From Sphingobacteriia bacterium (lineage in GTDB: Bacteria > Bacteroidota > Bacteroidia > Bacteroidales > UBA7960), in assembly GCA_011390785.1 (NCBI GenBank), contig JAABRR010000023.1, positions 1-64,000 of the forward strand: a DNA stretch of 64,000 bases, written 5' to 3'. Numbering within the stretch: position 1 is the stretch's first letter; the number at the start of each line of letters is the position of its first letter. Both the position numbers and the translations under genes were made by a program. Shown here piece after piece: positions 56,386 through 64,000 of this stretch. Below the pieces are notes generated by a model that was not told the origin of the DNA, did not search any database, and worked only from the letters and a program-made list of their open reading frames with translations.

Positions 56386-57261
56386 TTATGATTTGCTTTT
56401 ATTTTTGTGGAACTTGTGAATGCATTCAGCAAATGTTTTCGCTGAGTTATTATCAAACCTAAAATAGAGACAGGGCTCAATCAATTCAAGCTCCATTAAA
56501 GCATAAGAGTTCTGAGCGGTTCTTACCAAATCAACGCGGGCATAAAATGGCGTTTTATCCAAAACACTTATGGCTTTGTTTGCCTTTTCCACAAGAAGCG
56601 GGTCAGGTATTTTTATGGGAATGACACCACCTCCGTGTTCTTCCTGCACTCGATAATCTCCTGTCTTTACTGTTTTTAGAATTGTATGATTCAGTTTTCC
56701 CTGAAAATAAATCAACGAGAATTCACCTTCATCCACAATGTTTTGCATAAAAGGTTGAATCAGACATTCCCGATTGATAAAAACAGATTCCAGCAATTCA
56801 AAATCAATTGCTGTATTCTTTTGAATTCTGAATGTATCATCTGCATTTGCCCCAATGATGGGCTTAACAATCAATTCGAACGAATTGAATTGTTCAAAGG
56901 CCGAAATTACATCTGACTTTTTCAGGGAATTGGCCTTAATGGTCGGAACCAATTCAACACCTTTGCTTTCAAGGTCAAACAGATAATTCTTATTGATGTT
57001 CCACCTTATTATCTCCAAACTGTTTATTAAAATGGCCTTTGATTCATCGATCTGATTTAAAACAGCTAAAAAAGCATCTAAATGAGCCTGGTAATCCCAC
57101 GGACTTCTTATTATAACCAAATCAAATGTATTCCAGGCAACGGATTTGTTCCAGGGGATATTTTCAACCTTCCATCCTAAACTTTGCAAATGCGGATGCA
57201 CTAGGTCGTCATCAATAAACCAACCGTCTGTATTGGATATGGAAAGAAATGCACAATTCAT
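56386..57261 (-). CDS. ATP-grasp ligase of unknown specificity
   Basis: A 291-residue ATP-grasp protein. The fold is indicated by FELIVKPIIGANADDTFRI (nucleotide-binding Lys), ECLIQPFMQNIVDEGEFSLIYF and the metal-binding ALMELELIEPCLYF; a GDYRVQEEHGGG loop precedes the last. The best general match is to the glutathione-synthetase/RimK-like group and to cyclo-ligases such as DcsG, which share the last two motifs, but the substrate is unknown. Upstream of it on the same strand, 23 bases away, is an MFS exporter-like gene, so a link between making and exporting a small molecule is possible. Confidence 0.82.
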   Translation of the reverse strand: MNCAFLSISNTDGWFIDDDLVHPHLQSLGWKVENIPWNKSVAWNTFDLVIIRSPWDYQAHLDAFLAVLNQIDESKAILINSLEIIRWNINKNYLFDLESKGVELVPTIKANSLKKSDVISAFEQFNSFELIVKPIIGANADDTFRIQKNTAIDFELLESVFINRECLIQPFMQNIVDEGEFSLIYFQGKLNHTILKTVKTGDYRVQEEHGGGVIPIKIPDPLLVEKANKAISVLDKTPFYARVDLVRTAQNSYALMELELIEPCLYFRFDNNSAKTFAECIHKFHKNKSKS

Positions 57262-58872: not shown

Positions 58873-60504
58873 ATGAACAAAACAAAAAGAATCATTGCCA
58901 TTTTTTTCGTGCTATGGATGGCCGGTGTTTCGGCAATCAATGCCAACGAATTTACAGATGCCAAGGCATCACAGGACAAGTTAAAATCTTTGGCCGGGCA
59001 GTACCCGGATTTTGCAAAATATGAAGTTTTAACATCTACTCCGGCTGGAAACAACCTTGGAGTGCTAACCCTTGGCAGGGGAAACGCTGCTGAAAAACCA
59101 GCCATTGCCTTAGTTGGGGGTATTGAAGGACCACATCTGTTTGGCACCAAACTGGCCATTGAATTTGCCGAAAAGGTATTGGGCCAAACCGGAAACAAGC
59201 AGATTAGTGCATTGCTCGATTCGGTTTGTTTTTATGTGATCCCCTCCATAAACCCCGATGCAGCGCAGAGTTATTTTACATCACTCCGTTATGAGAGAAG
59301 AGGAAACGGCTCACCGACCGATCTTGACCGCGATGGTCGAATTGCCGAAGATGGCTACGACGATCTTAATCGTGACGGCCTCATCTCCATGATGCGCATT
59401 GCCGATCCAACAGGCAAATGGATGCCACATCCTGCTGACGAAAGAATAATGGTGGAAGCAAGACCTGCACAGGGCGAAACAGGAAGCTATCTCTACCTTA
59501 CTGAAGGTATCGACAACGATAAAGATGAATCTTTTAATGAAGATGGCGATGAGGGTGTAATAATCAATCGGAATTTTGCCTTCAAACATCCCTTTTTCAC
59601 TACCGGCTCGGGCGAGCATGCCATGTCGGAAGTTGAAACCCGAGCCATTGCAGATTTTCTCTACGATGCCAAAAATGTTTTTGCTGTAGTGAGTTTTGGC
59701 CCGGCCAACAACCTTTCAAAGCCACTCAGTTACAACGAAAGAGAAGCCAGCGCAAGAATCCATACCGGCTGGAAAAAAGACGACATTACCTTAAATGAAC
59801 AAATAAGCCATCTCTACAACAAACATCTGGGCAAGATGGCCCCGGCAGAACAATCCGGTTCTGATGGCGATTTCTTCCAGTGGGCCTATTTCCACTACGG
59901 AAGGTTTAGTTTCTCCACTCCTGGCTGGACGTTTCCTGACACAGCCAAAACCGACAAAGACGCCCCCAAATCCCAAGAGCTAAACTTTTTAAAATGGGCC
60001 GAAGCCAACAAGATAGAAAATGCATTTATCCCCTGGACAGCCATTGACCACCCCGATTTTCCCAACAAAAAAGTAGAAGTTGGTGGTCTGGCACCATTTG
60101 CCATGATCAATCCACCTGCCAATATGCACGATACAATTATCGATATCCACACCAACTTTTTGCTCGATCTGGCACGCATGCGACCCCGTATTGAAATTCG
60201 CGATGTTAAAACCGAGCATATCGGGCGTGGACTTTACAGGGTTACTGCCGAAATTGCAAATCCGGGAGATTTTCCTACCGCATCACAAACCGGAGAAATG
60301 GTTCGCTGGATGCAAAAAACAGTGGTGAGACTCACCCCTGCCCGCGGACAGGAAATAATTAGTGGAAATGTCGTGGAAGTATTTGGCGCCATGGGTCCCC
60401 GCAGCTCAGTAAAAAGAAGCTGGATTATTAAAGGAGATGGTACTATTATGCTCAGAGCAGGTGGAGAACCTACCGGGTTTGATCAGAAAGACATCAGCCT
60501 TTAA
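58873..60504 (+). CDS. M14-family protein lacking zinc ligands, probable pseudoenzyme
   Basis: A 543-residue exported protein (signal peptide about 1-24, ending INANE), homologous along its length to the two M14 carboxypeptidases downstream. Shared landmarks: the SINPDA strand, the Asp-rich DLDRDGRIAEDGYDDLNRDG insertion and the DAFVPW-like IPWTAIDHPDFPNKKVEVGG segment. The first zinc motif His-x2-Glu is replaced by Glu85-Gly-Pro-His88, the second His ligand aligns with Gly276 (SFGPANN), and the catalytic Glu aligns with Pro350. The N-R pair that binds substrate carboxylate is partly kept (INRNFAF). Probably no longer a peptidase; a binding or scaffolding role is possible. Confidence 0.8.
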   Translation: MNKTKRIIAIFFVLWMAGVSAINANEFTDAKASQDKLKSLAGQYPDFAKYEVLTSTPAGNNLGVLTLGRGNAAEKPAIALVGGIEGPHLFGTKLAIEFAEKVLGQTGNKQISALLDSVCFYVIPSINPDAAQSYFTSLRYERRGNGSPTDLDRDGRIAEDGYDDLNRDGLISMMRIADPTGKWMPHPADERIMVEARPAQGETGSYLYLTEGIDNDKDESFNEDGDEGVIINRNFAFKHPFFTTGSGEHAMSEVETRAIADFLYDAKNVFAVVSFGPANNLSKPLSYNEREASARIHTGWKKDDITLNEQISHLYNKHLGKMAPAEQSGSDGDFFQWAYFHYGRFSFSTPGWTFPDTAKTDKDAPKSQELNFLKWAEANKIENAFIPWTAIDHPDFPNKKVEVGGLAPFAMINPPANMHDTIIDIHTNFLLDLARMRPRIEIRDVKTEHIGRGLYRVTAEIANPGDFPTASQTGEMVRWMQKTVVRLTPARGQEIISGNVVEVFGAMGPRSSVKRSWIIKGDGTIMLRAGGEPTGFDQKDISL

Positions 60505-60593
60505 TCAGCCCAACAACAGGTAGGCAATCCTGATTTCATTTTATATCAAAAAATCAATTTTACTGGTAAATTCAGTATAAAAACAGTAACAAG

Positions 60594-62342
60594 ATGAAGA
60601 GAATTATTTTTTTAATATACACAGTACTGATAACTATTTCGGTATCTGCACAGAACATTGATGGTCGGGCGGTGGAGAACTTCTTCAAAGCACCCGGTAC
60701 TCCGGTAAATCCAAAGGTGGAAGTAAGCTGGAACCGATACTACACCAACGATGGGCTGCTCGATATTTATAACCGTATGGTAAGAGCTTATCCCGATCTG
60801 GTAAAACTGGAATCCATTGGAAAAAGCTACGAAAATCGTAATATATGGCTACTTACCGTTACCAACCAAAAAAACAAACCCCACAGAGAAAAGCCGGGTT
60901 TCTGGATTGATGGAGCCATTCACTCGAACGAAATCCAGGGCTCTGAAATATCAGTTTATACAGCCTGGTATCTTACCGAAAATTATGGCAAAAATGACTT
61001 CATAACCCAATTGATGGATGAAAAGGTGTTTTACATTATGCCGGTAAGCAGTCCCGATGGGCGCGAATTTTATATGAACCGACCTGGCACCGTCAATTCG
61101 TCTCGCAGTGGTGCTATACCCCTTGATGATGATGGCGATGGTTTGGCAGCCGAAGATGGGTTTAATGACCTAAACGGTGATGGCCATATTACGATGATGC
61201 GCCGCCGCAATCCTTACGGACAATGGAAAACCGACCCATCTGACCAGCGACGATTGGTTAGGGCAGAAGCTGATGAATTTGGCGAATGGGAAATGCTGGG
61301 TTTTGAAGGTATGGATGCCGACAATGACGGGCGGGCATCTGAAGATCGCGCCGATGGCTATTACGATCCCAACCGCGACTGGGGCTGGAACTGGCAACCT
61401 GATTATGTGCAGCGTGGAGCCTATCGTTATCCATTTTCACTGCCGGAATCTATGGCTGTACGCGATTTCGTTATGAATCATCCCAATATAGCCGGTGCCC
61501 AATCTTACCATAATACGGGTGGTATGCTGCTTCGTGGACCAGGATCCAACGATGATTCTAAATTTTATCTCCGGGAAGATGTAAGAGTTTATGATCATTT
61601 AGGTGAATTGGGAGAAAAACTCATCCCCGGATACAACTACTATATTATTCATGAAGACCTTTACACTGTATATGGCGGCCTTATCGACTGGTTTCATCTT
61701 ATGCGGGGTATCTTCACCTTCTCCAATGAGTTGTTTACTTCCTACTTCTACTTTAATCAGCAATCTGACGGATGGTTTGGCCGCCAGGAAGAAGCCATGG
61801 AATTTGACCGTTTTCTCCTGTTTGAAGATGCTTTTGTTCCCTGGCAGGAGTATGATCATCCACAATATGGGAAAATTGAGATAGGAGGCTTTAAGAAGAA
61901 TTTTGGAAGAATCAACCCCGGATTCCTTTTGGAAAATGAAGCCCATCGCAACATGGCCTTTACCTTGCATCACGCCTACCATACTCCACACCTTGAAATT
62001 ACTGAACTTACAAGCAAGGACCTTGGTGGAGGACTACGCGAAATAACTGCCCAGGTAACCAACTCAAGACTCATTCCTACTCATGCCGGCATTGATAATC
62101 GTTACAAAATTACCCGCCCCAACTATATTACACTGGAAGGTGGTAATGTGGTAGCTGGTATGATCATAAAAAACCGCGACCTGAATGTTGTAGAAGAACA
62201 ATTAATCAATCCTGCGACCATTGAAGTAGATAATATTCCCGGTATGAACTCGGTCCTGGTAAAATGGGTAGTAGATGGAGGAAGAAGATTTACCGTAACC
62301 GTAGATAGCGCCAAAGGGGGTAGAATAAGTAAAGAATTGTAA
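60594..62342 (+). CDS. Zinc carboxypeptidase, M14 family
   Basis: A 582-residue exported metallopeptidase (signal peptide 1-20, ending SAQ). Active-site residues are all present: His110 and Glu113 in AIHSNEIQ, the Asn260-Arg261 pair in DPNRDWGWNWQPD, His306 in SYHNTGG and catalytic Glu379 in FSNELF. An insertion (about 178-262) has repeated Asp-x-Asp-Gly loops (DDDGDG, NGDGHI, DADNDG), which probably bind calcium. It should trim C-terminal residues from peptides outside the cytoplasm. The C-terminal ~100 residues form an extra beta domain. It is 13 bases from the next paralogue. Confidence 0.93.
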   Translation: MKRIIFLIYTVLITISVSAQNIDGRAVENFFKAPGTPVNPKVEVSWNRYYTNDGLLDIYNRMVRAYPDLVKLESIGKSYENRNIWLLTVTNQKNKPHREKPGFWIDGAIHSNEIQGSEISVYTAWYLTENYGKNDFITQLMDEKVFYIMPVSSPDGREFYMNRPGTVNSSRSGAIPLDDDGDGLAAEDGFNDLNGDGHITMMRRRNPYGQWKTDPSDQRRLVRAEADEFGEWEMLGFEGMDADNDGRASEDRADGYYDPNRDWGWNWQPDYVQRGAYRYPFSLPESMAVRDFVMNHPNIAGAQSYHNTGGMLLRGPGSNDDSKFYLREDVRVYDHLGELGEKLIPGYNYYIIHEDLYTVYGGLIDWFHLMRGIFTFSNELFTSYFYFNQQSDGWFGRQEEAMEFDRFLLFEDAFVPWQEYDHPQYGKIEIGGFKKNFGRINPGFLLENEAHRNMAFTLHHAYHTPHLEITELTSKDLGGGLREITAQVTNSRLIPTHAGIDNRYKITRPNYITLEGGNVVAGMIIKNRDLNVVEEQLINPATIEVDNIPGMNSVLVKWVVDGGRRFTVTVDSAKGGRISKEL

Positions 62343-62355
62343 AACAAGAATTACC

Positions 62356-64000
62356 ATGAGATTTTATTTATCAGTAATCATCCTGTTTTTTACCCTTCAG
62401 CATCTAAGCTATAAAGCTAAAAGTCAGAATGACGGTGGTCCGATAGAAGATTTTTTCTTCAAAGCACCCGGCACACCGCCAAATCCAAAGGTTACCATAC
62501 ACTGGAACCGTTACAACACCAACGAAGGGCTTTATGAAATTTACCAAAAAATGGTAGCAGCATACCCTGAGTTGGTTACCCTTGAAACTATTGGTAAAAG
62601 TTATGAAGGGCGTGATCTGTGGCTACTTACCATTACCGAACAAAACAAACCTGGCATTGAAAAACCGGCATTGTGGATTGATGGCAACATCCACTCCAAT
62701 GAGATTCAGGCATCAGAAGTAGCTTTATACACTGCCTGGTACCTTACCGAAAACTACGAAACCAATGCGCACATTCGTCAGCTCCTACATGAAAAAGTGT
62801 TTTACATTTTACCGGTAATGAATCCGGATGGCAGGGAAAACTATATGAACGAACCAAATACATCCAGCTCTCCCCGCAGTGGTACTCAGCCTTATGATGA
62901 TGATGGCGATGGAGTGGAAGGAGAAGATGGATTTTATGATCTTAACAATGACGGACACATTACCCAGATGCGCCGCCGGAATCCAATGGGCCGGTGGATT
63001 GAAGACCCGGAAGATCCAAGAAGACTGATCCCTGCTCCTGCAGGGCAATTTGGTGATTGGGATTTGCTGGGTTTTGAAGCCATAGATGCCGATGGCGACG
63101 GGCAAATGGGTGAAGACCGACCGGCAGGATACTACGACCCCAACCGCGACTGGGGCTGGAACTGGCAACCCGACTACGCACAACGGGGGGCTTATAAATA
63201 TCCGTTTTCGCATCCAGAAACACGGGCCGTAAGAGACTTTGCAATGGCCCATCCCAATATAAGTGGCGTGCTTACCCATCACAATATGGGTGGTATGTTT
63301 CTGCGTGGGCCGGGCTACGAACCCGATCTGCAATATTTTCTGCCCGAAGACCTCAGAATTTATGATGCCCTGGGTGCAATGGGAGAAAAGCTTGTACCCG
63401 GTTATAACTACCTGATAAGCTACCGCGATCTGTATCCGGTACTTGGTGGTCAACGCGACTGGTTTCACATGATGAGAGGAGCGTTTACCTATACTGTAGA
63501 GTTATTTACCCGGTATTATTATTTTCATGATGAAAACCGTGATGGAAACCGAAATCGCAGTTCAGATGTTTACACCTTCGATAAGTACCTTCTTTTTGGT
63601 GATGCTTTTGTACCCTGGACTGATATAAAGCATCCTCAACATGGCGAAATACAAGTGGGAGGCTTTAAGAAGAATTATGTACGGGTCAATCCAGGATTTA
63701 TGCTTGAGGAGGAAGCACACCGAGTTACTGCCTATTCTATTTTTCATGCATGGCATACACCGGGCCTTGAAATTACAGAACTCAGTATTACGGATTTAGG
63801 AGATGGCCTAACTGAAGTTTTGGCCACGGTTACCAATACCCGAATGACACCCACCCACTCGGGCGTAAACCTGAAATTCAGCATTGACCGGCCAGACTAT
63901 ATAGTATTGGAAGGCGCTGATGTAGTGGCTGGAATGATTGTGAAAAACCGGTATCTGAACCAGGTAGAGGAACAAATTGTAGATCCTGCATCTCTTGAGA
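62356..64000 (+). CDS. Zinc carboxypeptidase, M14 family, 3' end outside window
   Basis: At least 548 residues are visible from the ATG at 62356 and the frame is still open at the last base. Closely similar to the preceding gene: signal peptide about 1-23, His113 and Glu116 in NIHSNEIQ, DPNRDWGWNWQPD, HHNMGG for the third ligand and TVELF for the catalytic Glu. The same Asp-rich, calcium-like loops (DDDGDG, NNDGHI, DADGDG) are present. No frameshift or stop was met on reading the frame through. A recent tandem duplicate of the 60594 gene. Confidence 0.92.
   Translation, partial: MRFYLSVIILFFTLQHLSYKAKSQNDGGPIEDFFFKAPGTPPNPKVTIHWNRYNTNEGLYEIYQKMVAAYPELVTLETIGKSYEGRDLWLLTITEQNKPGIEKPALWIDGNIHSNEIQASEVALYTAWYLTENYETNAHIRQLLHEKVFYILPVMNPDGRENYMNEPNTSSSPRSGTQPYDDDGDGVEGEDGFYDLNNDGHITQMRRRNPMGRWIEDPEDPRRLIPAPAGQFGDWDLLGFEAIDADGDGQMGEDRPAGYYDPNRDWGWNWQPDYAQRGAYKYPFSHPETRAVRDFAMAHPNISGVLTHHNMGGMFLRGPGYEPDLQYFLPEDLRIYDALGAMGEKLVPGYNYLISYRDLYPVLGGQRDWFHMMRGAFTYTVELFTRYYYFHDENRDGNRNRSSDVYTFDKYLLFGDAFVPWTDIKHPQHGEIQVGGFKKNYVRVNPGFMLEEEAHRVTAYSIFHAWHTPGLEITELSITDLGDGLTEVLATVTNTRMTPTHSGVNLKFSIDRPDYIVLEGADVVAGMIVKNRYLNQVEEQIVDPASLE

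Follow-up and report, generated by a model that had tools for sequence, protein, structure and literature searches.

A maintained M14 pseudopeptidase encoded beside its predicted catalytic paralogue in Bacteroidota

Dead and live homologues in described systems

Mitochondrial processing peptidase (MPP; alpha/beta) and the bacterial M16B heterosubunit peptidases combine an active zinc subunit with a homologous subunit that lacks the zinc motif, and prokaryotic homologues are described as encoded by a two-gene operon (PMC11266112). The two proteins that concern us here, W1 and W2, are alike in their dead/live logic but belong to another peptidase family and fold; moreover, the MPP/M16B complex is established, whereas we infer that of W1 and W2 from their genes. 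The same logic recurs in Csd1-Csd2 of Helicobacter pylori (family M23B), a heterodimer of zinc-bound and metal-free homologues (PMC5053510), which differ in being cell-wall endopeptidases of the LytM fold. It is also seen in trypanosomes, where dead prozyme is the functional partner of its live paralogue AdoMetDC (PMC5201418), although the latter is not a peptidase.

Within the M14 family, domain III of carboxypeptidase D is a dead domain tied to active M14 domains (PMC11266112; PMC5683605), but these form one animal polypeptide, whereas W1 and W2 are separate proteins. In addition, this domain is reported to keep H69 and to have T145, i.e., the reverse of W1 (PMC11266112). AEBP1, CPXM1, CPXM2, and yeast Ecm14 likewise have the M14 fold with activity lost or unproven; in the same account H69 and E72 are still present in all four, and R145 is replaced by E, H, N, and H, respectively (PMC11266112). 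In contrast to these four eukaryotic proteins, W1-type proteins have lost all ligands and keep a basic residue at position 145 in 101/114 cases. We know of no operon-like pairing of any of the four with an active partner, and a keyword search of one open-access library for an earlier report of an M14 dead/live pair returned analogues only.

The locus and the dismantled zinc site of W1

The window, i.e., the whole stretch of 64,000 nucleotides analyzed, ends within a locus of three tandem M14 (carboxypeptidase A-type) genes (58873-64119) whose products are predicted to be secreted. All three ORFs are intact and lie on the forward strand: W1 (58873-60504; 543 aa) is followed after 89 nt by W2 (60594-62342; 582 aa) and, after a further 13 nt, by W3 (62356-64000 in the window; 587 aa). 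W3 extends 119 bases beyond the window on the same contig, its whole ORF in locus L004 running to 64119 with the stop codon at 64117-64119. All exceed the PF00246 cut-off of 21.6 bits, with scores of 75 for W1, 139 for W2, and 160 for the in-window part of W3. This was the only Pfam family matched by W1-W3 at E 0.01, with no match to family M16, to which MPP belongs. At the same threshold, there were zero NCBIfam matches for W1-W3 and for the 80 members of alignment A2, which covers 79 of the 80 W1 loci (L106 was left out). A first-pass annotation had described W1 as free of frameshifts and equipped with a signal peptide. The intact frame bears this out, as do the basic start and hydrophobic core seen by eye at residues ~1-24 (58873-58944, forward strand), within which the structure model places a helix (residues 2-19). 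A lipobox-like motif was present in 2/114 W1-type proteins.

The same annotation had stated that HSNE of the paralogues becomes EGPH in W1, the third ligand Gly, and the catalytic Glu Pro, and alignment to W2 agrees on each point. H110-S-N-E113 of W2 aligns with E85-G-P-H88 of W1 (59125-59136), the position of the zinc ligands H69 and E72 of carboxypeptidase A (CPA); H306 aligns with G276 (59698-59700; third zinc ligand, CPA H196); and E379 aligns with P350 (59920-59922; catalytic Glu, CPA E270), all on the forward strand. We surveyed these positions in a census of 114 distinct W1-type ORFs of >400 aa, deduplicated from 206 ORFs; the length limit removed both W1 pieces of genome G116 as well as the W1 fragment that G326 has at a contig end. 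These proteins, W1 included, have neither the HxxE plus His ligands nor the catalytic Glu of an active M14 peptidase: H and E at 85/88, His at 276, and Glu at 350 were each found in 0/114. Position 276 holds G (61), S (49), A (2), E (1), or T (1), with no substitute for the third zinc ligand seen there among the 114 proteins, and position 350 is Pro in 99/114. At the level of sequence, this loss is neither chance nor decay.

The annotation had also noted that His and Glu appear exchanged in EGPH, to be checked by its conservation in orthologues. The string turned out not to be conserved, with E85 in 80/114, H88 in 95/114, and both in only 68/114 W1-type proteins. Counting E or D at 85 together with H at 88, both are present in 71 proteins, only the acidic residue in 14, only the His in 24, and neither in 5. 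Because the two positions vary independently and 8/12 deep-branching rows have E85 without H88, the apparent swap looks like two separate, uncoupled substitutions. A conserved swapped zinc motif is thus rejected, and the uncoupled pair and the missing third-ligand substitute lend no support to another metal geometry built on the exchanged residues. This reasoning applies to the old ligand positions; a different metal site elsewhere in W1 is considered below.

In line with the same annotation, W2 and W3 retain His-x2-Glu, His, and Glu, and this residue set predicts that both are active M14 peptidases, W3 being a second copy duplicated from W2. Across 120 distinct W2-type proteins (ORFs of >500 aa and >500 bits), the H and E of H110-S-N-E113 (60921-60932) are each conserved in 120/120, H306 (61509-61511) in 119/120, and E379 (61728-61730) in 120/120, all on the forward strand, and the equivalents of R127, N144, R145, and Y248 in 120/120 each. 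Alignment A3 of these live copies comprised W2, W3, and 55 of the 75 W2-type ORFs uncut at the 3' end in the collected loci.

Despite lacking these residues, W1 is a homologue within the M14 family: it matches PF00246, as do 80/80 A2 members, and its model (mean pLDDT 89.9) matches carboxypeptidase T with a Z score of 31.4 and an rmsd of 2.6 over 286 residues. W1 resembles carboxypeptidases A, B, and T in fold (Z 28-31) and in the N144/R145 pocket, but is without their zinc site, E270, and, by our own mapping, Tyr248 equivalent. The W2 model is weak around the active site (pLDDT 32-43 at residues 251-280), which may suit a need for a partner or only reflect a shallower alignment.

Several other features are kept in W1. 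N232-R233 (59566-59571, forward strand, as are the following) correspond to CPA N144-R145, the pocket for the C-terminal carboxylate of the substrate; N232 is conserved in 107/114 W1-type proteins, and position 233 is K or R in 101/114, Arg itself in 36. R142-R143-G-N145 (59296-59307) combines an Arg near CPA R127, in a register good to one residue either way, with an invariant Asn (R142 105/114; N145 114/114). W1 shares with W2 an Asp-rich insert of the DxDxDG type at residues 150-168 (59320-59376), in which D152 (111/114), D154 (110/114), D164 (114/114), and D168 (110/114) are conserved and the aligned Asp residues are kept in W2; we take this insert to resemble a calcium loop. The hallmark of the W1 clade is GDFFQWAYFHYGRFSFSTPGW (residues 332-352; 59866-59928), of which G332-H341, R344, S346, and T349 are invariant in the 80 rows of A2 and, in the wider census, W337 and H341 are found in 109/114 and 110/114. 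From the mapping to CPA numbering, this segment presumably covers what used to be the S1' pocket as well as the catalytic strand.

Descent and co-occurrence of the dead and live genes

In a tree of 92 chosen rows, built by a quick method and with long branches flagged, a branch with support of 100 sets off the dead group (39 rows) from all other rows, and another does so for the live group (45 rows); W3 falls inside the W2 clade beside the second copy of L036. As the two types form separate clades, one duplication and one loss suffice to explain them. W1 is under purifying selection, with a median dN/dS of 0.058 and a maximum of 0.106 (71 of 418 close pairs, dS <2), compared to a median of 0.023 for W2 (51 pairs); the pairs overlap and are not independent. 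The distances of W1 and W2 correlate strongly (r = 0.93, compared to 0.21 at best in 500 permutations), which is not specific because any two co-inherited genes correlate. W1 is a maintained homologue without catalytic residues, i.e., an M14 pseudopeptidase. The first-pass view, in which a maintained pseudoenzyme heads an operon shared with active paralogues, is upheld by dN/dS, census, co-occurrence, and gene order, and more strongly than the sequence alone could show.

We searched 395 genomes of the phylum Bacteroidota and 59 genomes of relatives. W1 was found in 35 phylum genomes, and a contig of a 36th, G326, begins with a fragment of it; W2 (E 1e-150 or better) was found in 37, among them all 36 genomes with W1 or its fragment; in the 37th, G135, W2 begins at base 2 of its contig. 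Both partners were present in 17 of the relatives, where G395 (W2 cut by a contig end) and G424 were read directly, the divergent W1 of the latter having escaped at E 1e-60. Contig ends excepted, no lone W1 or W2 was found in the 395 + 59 genomes at the thresholds used, in a search that used E cut-offs, scored only three candidates per genome in the phylum set, and could be escaped by divergent lone partners. G372, a weak match to both profiles, scored better with W2 and has an intact HxNE, and was dropped as another M14 protein.

Of the 35 phylum genomes that have W1, 34 have W1 and W2 adjacent, with W1 first. The exception is G192 (locus L031), in which they lie on different contigs, both well inside; the genes are unlinked yet both present. 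As in MPP-like systems, homologous dead and live proteins are encoded by adjacent genes: W1 precedes W2 on the same strand in 106/106 loci with both (100 distinct W1), and the gap is 3-13 nt in 66/106. Four loci have no W2 ORF of 200 aa: in L031 the genes are unlinked, as stated above; in L041 and L080 the contig ends inside or just after W1, and in L048 the start of W2 is present and cut by the contig end. All apparent cases of a partner alone (G135, G424, G395, L041, L080, L048, and L031) hence trace to contig ends, to both genes being present, or to unlinked genes. No longer conserved operon was seen among ORFs of at least 200 aa in 80 loci: no third gene of this size regularly follows the pair, and the largest same-strand downstream cluster has 7 members. 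The commonest neighbors in these loci, named by eye, are antiporter-like (35) and UspA-like (34) genes, nearly all divergently transcribed. W1-W2 fusions were absent among the ORFs of the collected loci and genomes.

Proposed role of W1 and its alternatives

In the genomes searched, contig ends excepted, the live enzyme was found together with its dead look-alike, and this suggests a working subunit rather than a broken gene. On balance, we think it somewhat probable that many Bacteroidota have an M14 carboxypeptidase made of two proteins, with W1 as its non-catalytic subunit, a complex that we infer, as we do its periplasmic location. An ancestral M14 gene would have been duplicated; the zinc site and the catalytic Glu would have disappeared from the W1 copy in a single early loss, and this copy would have been retained with W2 since. 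W2 would cut with zinc, and W3 would be a second catalytic subunit. Given that W1 keeps the fold and a partial carboxylate pocket (CPA N144, R/K145), we propose that it may bind W2 and hold, orient, or gate the peptide substrate, or steady the active-site loops of W2, with a possible effect on activity. It is a plausible but tentative proposition that the two form an obligate dead/live M14 heteromer in Bacteroidota, in which the dead subunit would add a second C-terminus pocket for substrate capture.

Alternatively, W1 could be a lone binding protein, i.e., a receptor or scavenger of peptide C-termini that serves the W2 pathway without a complex. The retention of N232 and K/R233 in proteins whose cutting residues are gone fits this account, as does the persistence of both genes unlinked in G192; however, such a receptor should sometimes occur alone, and W1 was not found without W2 in the genomes searched save at contig ends, making this reading unlikely. 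W1 might instead regulate W2 as an inhibitor or as a folding or secretion helper, roles that pro-domains play in other carboxypeptidases. Its first place in the operon, often a few nucleotides from W2, suits co-translation, and the W2 monomer model is poor near the active site, but W1, a paralogue of full length, carries a signal peptide itself, and we hold this role to be rather improbable.

A new catalytic or metal-binding function from other residues (e.g., D333, H341, H426, or E85/H88) is highly improbable: although D333 (102/114), H341 (110/114), R344 (106/114), and H426 (105/114) are conserved in W1-type proteins and not in W2, E85/H88 are uncoupled and variable, and the old positions hold no conserved ligand set. 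Co-occurrence and operon structure would be equally expected if two secreted proteins that act independently were transferred jointly as a cassette, with W1 unrelated to W2 function, and the patchy spread of W1 (35/395 genomes) fits block transfer or loss. Yet block inheritance does not readily explain the long retention of a non-enzyme, nor the co-presence of unlinked genes (one genome only), and we give this account very little credence. There is practically no chance that W1 is a decaying pseudogene or sequencing artefact, as the two-piece W1 of G116 might suggest, since this is contradicted by 114 distinct open frames, conservation of N145, low dN/dS, and a single clade.

With a non-catalytic W1 subunit, the M14 family would gain a dead/live gene pair; its pseudoenzymes, as far as reviewed, are eukaryotic, with only carboxypeptidase D domain III described as tied to an active twin (PMC11266112). 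If true, a family known as self-sufficient enzymes would have a two-subunit form, both subunits matching Pfam 'Zinc carboxypeptidase'. Since this label was placed on the dead subunit in 80/80 members scanned, peptidase counts resting on the label alone would be inflated. Moreover, the W1-W2 pair is a natural test case for the contribution of a pseudoenzyme to its live paralogue.

The tandem M14 genes and the active site of W1

Three M14 genes follow one another on the forward strand: the site-less pseudopeptidase W1 (58873-60504), its catalytic partner W2 (60594-62342), and a second catalytic copy, W3 (62356-64119), whose last 119 bases lie past the window on the same contig; all are carboxypeptidase A-type. 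All three reading frames are intact and pass the Pfam cut-off for PF00246, confirming the tandem trio, with no frameshift in W1, described in the first-pass annotation. Because the flanking genes, one upstream of W1 and one downstream of W3 (by eye, presumably a nucleoside transporter), are on the other strand, W1-W2-W3 form a closed unit. A 291-aa ORF on the reverse strand (56386-57261), which we take by eye to be ATP-grasp-like, has no Pfam match at E 0.01 and adjoins an MFS transporter gene. Additional M14 matches occur on contigs C29, C72, and C97 of the same genome; the C29 protein, when its sequence was read, retained an HxNE motif.

Alignments place H110-S-N-E113, H306, and E379 of W2 opposite E85-G-P-H88, G276, and P350 of W1, bearing out the earlier site alignment (EGPH for HSNE, Gly for the third ligand, and Pro for the catalytic Glu). 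The Asn144-Arg145 pair of carboxypeptidase A (CPA) grips the terminal carboxylate of the substrate; by mapping on CPA numbering, we take W1 to retain this pair as N232-R233 and to lack a Tyr248 equivalent. Residues R142, N145, N280, D333, H341, R344, and H426 are conserved in W1 and not in W2. Between the R127 and N144 regions, dead and live families alike carry an insert of Asp-rich DxDxDG repeats (59320-59376 and 59512-59526 in W1, with counterparts in W2 and W3), which is kept in nearly all rows and resembles calcium-binding loops.

The AlphaFold model of W1 (mean pLDDT 89.9, pTM 0.88) matched carboxypeptidase T best among solved structures (a mutant entry; Z 31.4, rmsd 2.6, 286 residues), with Z 28-30 against carboxypeptidases A and B. 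The W2 model matched the same family (Z about 28) and was weaker (pLDDT 76.4), falling to pLDDT 32-43 at residues 251-280, beside the carboxylate pocket. This low confidence may reflect an absent partner; however, the shallower W2 alignment (57 rows, 68% mean column identity, versus 80 rows, 51% for W1) is also at hand as an explanation.

Conservation and descent of the dead and live groups

A single scan of genome contigs supplied relatives (best 80 of 146 relative-encoding stretches); those with names are Bacteroidota, and the phylum is called so on that basis. Sampled genomes, 395 of the phylum and 59 relatives, supplied more. The W1-type set comprised 206 ORFs of >400 aa, 114 of them distinct by their last 250 residues; H..E at 85/88, His at 276, and Glu at 350 were each found in 0/114, and divergent W1 branches are likewise dead. 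The W2-type set, limited to proteins of >500 aa scoring >500 bits, comprised 120 distinct members; the first His, the ligand Glu, and the catalytic Glu were each present in 120/120 and the third His in 119/120. The exception, one of two tandem W2 copies in genome G326 (L181:508-2229), has Leu instead, possibly a second loss. W1 is usually ~540 aa, reaching 620-730 aa in a deep subgroup (loci L174-L177, L218, and L220); in genome G116 (L179) it is split into two overlapping ORFs of 186 and 365 aa, the cause being a frameshift or else an error in sequencing.

We compared 418 W1 pairs, 72-99% identical, and used the 71 with dS <2. Median dN/dS was 0.058 (maximum 0.106) for W1 and 0.023 for W2 (51 pairs), the pairs overlapping and not being independent in either set; these values agree with the proposal that W1 is a maintained gene. 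A tree built from 92 selected proteins (quick search, SH-aLRT, some long branches flagged) set the dead group and the live group each apart at a branch supported at 100, and eight outgroup rows placed the root with support 88. One duplication and one loss suffice to explain this topology.

The His and Glu of the zinc motif had also been read as exchanged in W1. E/D at 85 accompanies H88 in 71 of the 114 W1-type proteins, 14 have E/D85 without H88, 24 the converse, and five neither, giving an odds ratio of ~1 (by hand). E85 occurs without H88 in eight of the 12 deep-branching rows (L174-L180, L182, and L186-L189); H88 is present in L174, L186, and L189, and L180 has neither. Since positions 85 and 88 are uncoupled and the deep rows mostly carry E85 without H88, the apparent swap looks like a pair of independent changes and gives no reason to propose a new metal site.

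Pairing of W1 and W2 across genomes

In the phylum sample, where three candidates per genome were scored and absence is less firm than presence, the W1 profile matched 37/395 genomes at 1e-30. We excluded G372, whose match is a different M14 protein, and G326, which has just a W1 fragment at a contig start, leaving 35/395. W2 was found at E 1e-150 or better in 37/395 genomes. Six further W2-profile matches (1e-60 to 1e-66) were by score other M14 proteins; those of five genomes, including G179, were read directly. All 36 W1 genomes (35 plus G326) fall within the 37 W2 genomes, and in the 37th, G135, W2 starts at base 2 of its contig. By coordinates, W1 and W2 are neighbours, W1 leading, in 34 of these 35 genomes; G192 has them on separate contigs, each gene well inside its contig and amid other genes. 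Both partners occur in 17 of the 59 relatives (established by direct reading in G424 and G395); in G419 they sit at facing ends of two contigs.

W1 came first, on the same strand as W2, at 106/106 loci with both genes (100 distinct W1), upholding its proposed leading place in the operon. The gap was 3-13 nt in 66 loci, larger in 23, and smaller in 17, where negative values arise partly because the first start codon was picked mechanically. Besides W3 in the window, duplicates of W2 occur at loci L036 and L038, in G116 and G326, and in a further five genomes of the genus (G396-G400); G398 and G399 appear to be the genomes from which L036 and L038 come. A second W1 gene was observed in G092 and G426 alone, and both of these genomes also carry two W2 genes. 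Among loci L034-L113, genes that we take by eye to be antiporter-like (35 loci) and UspA-like (34 loci) lie upstream, nearly always divergently transcribed.

A putative heteromeric carboxypeptidase

On the most economical reading, we infer a complex in which W1 and W2 form a heteromeric carboxypeptidase. W2 would do the cutting and W1 would assist; the retained carboxylate pocket suggests that W1 binds the peptide C-terminus. At the W2 position matching CPA 255, most proteins have Leu or Ile (103/109 rows, two of them gaps), so we guess that hydrophobic C-terminal residues are preferred. Signal peptides (read by eye), few lipobox-like motifs (2/114 W1-type and 2/120 W2-type proteins), and no match in an NCBIfam search, sorting domains included, together suggest a periplasmic location.

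The M14 pseudoenzymes in the available part of a review of metallopeptidase pseudoenzymes are animal proteins and yeast Ecm14, and by its table H69 is retained in all of them and E72 in 4/5, whereas R145 is gone from every one (PMC11266112). W1 is the reverse of these, with the zinc ligands gone and the basic residue at 145 kept. As dead/live pairs, the same part names alpha/beta MPP and the two-gene M16 operons of prokaryotes (PMC11266112), and Csd1-Csd2, of family M23B, is described as another in the part available of its paper (PMC5053510). Keyword searches of one open-access library found no prior report of a dead/live M14 pair. Should W1 and W2 indeed form a complex, they would be the equivalent in M14 of the MPP/M16 and Csd1-Csd2 pairs.
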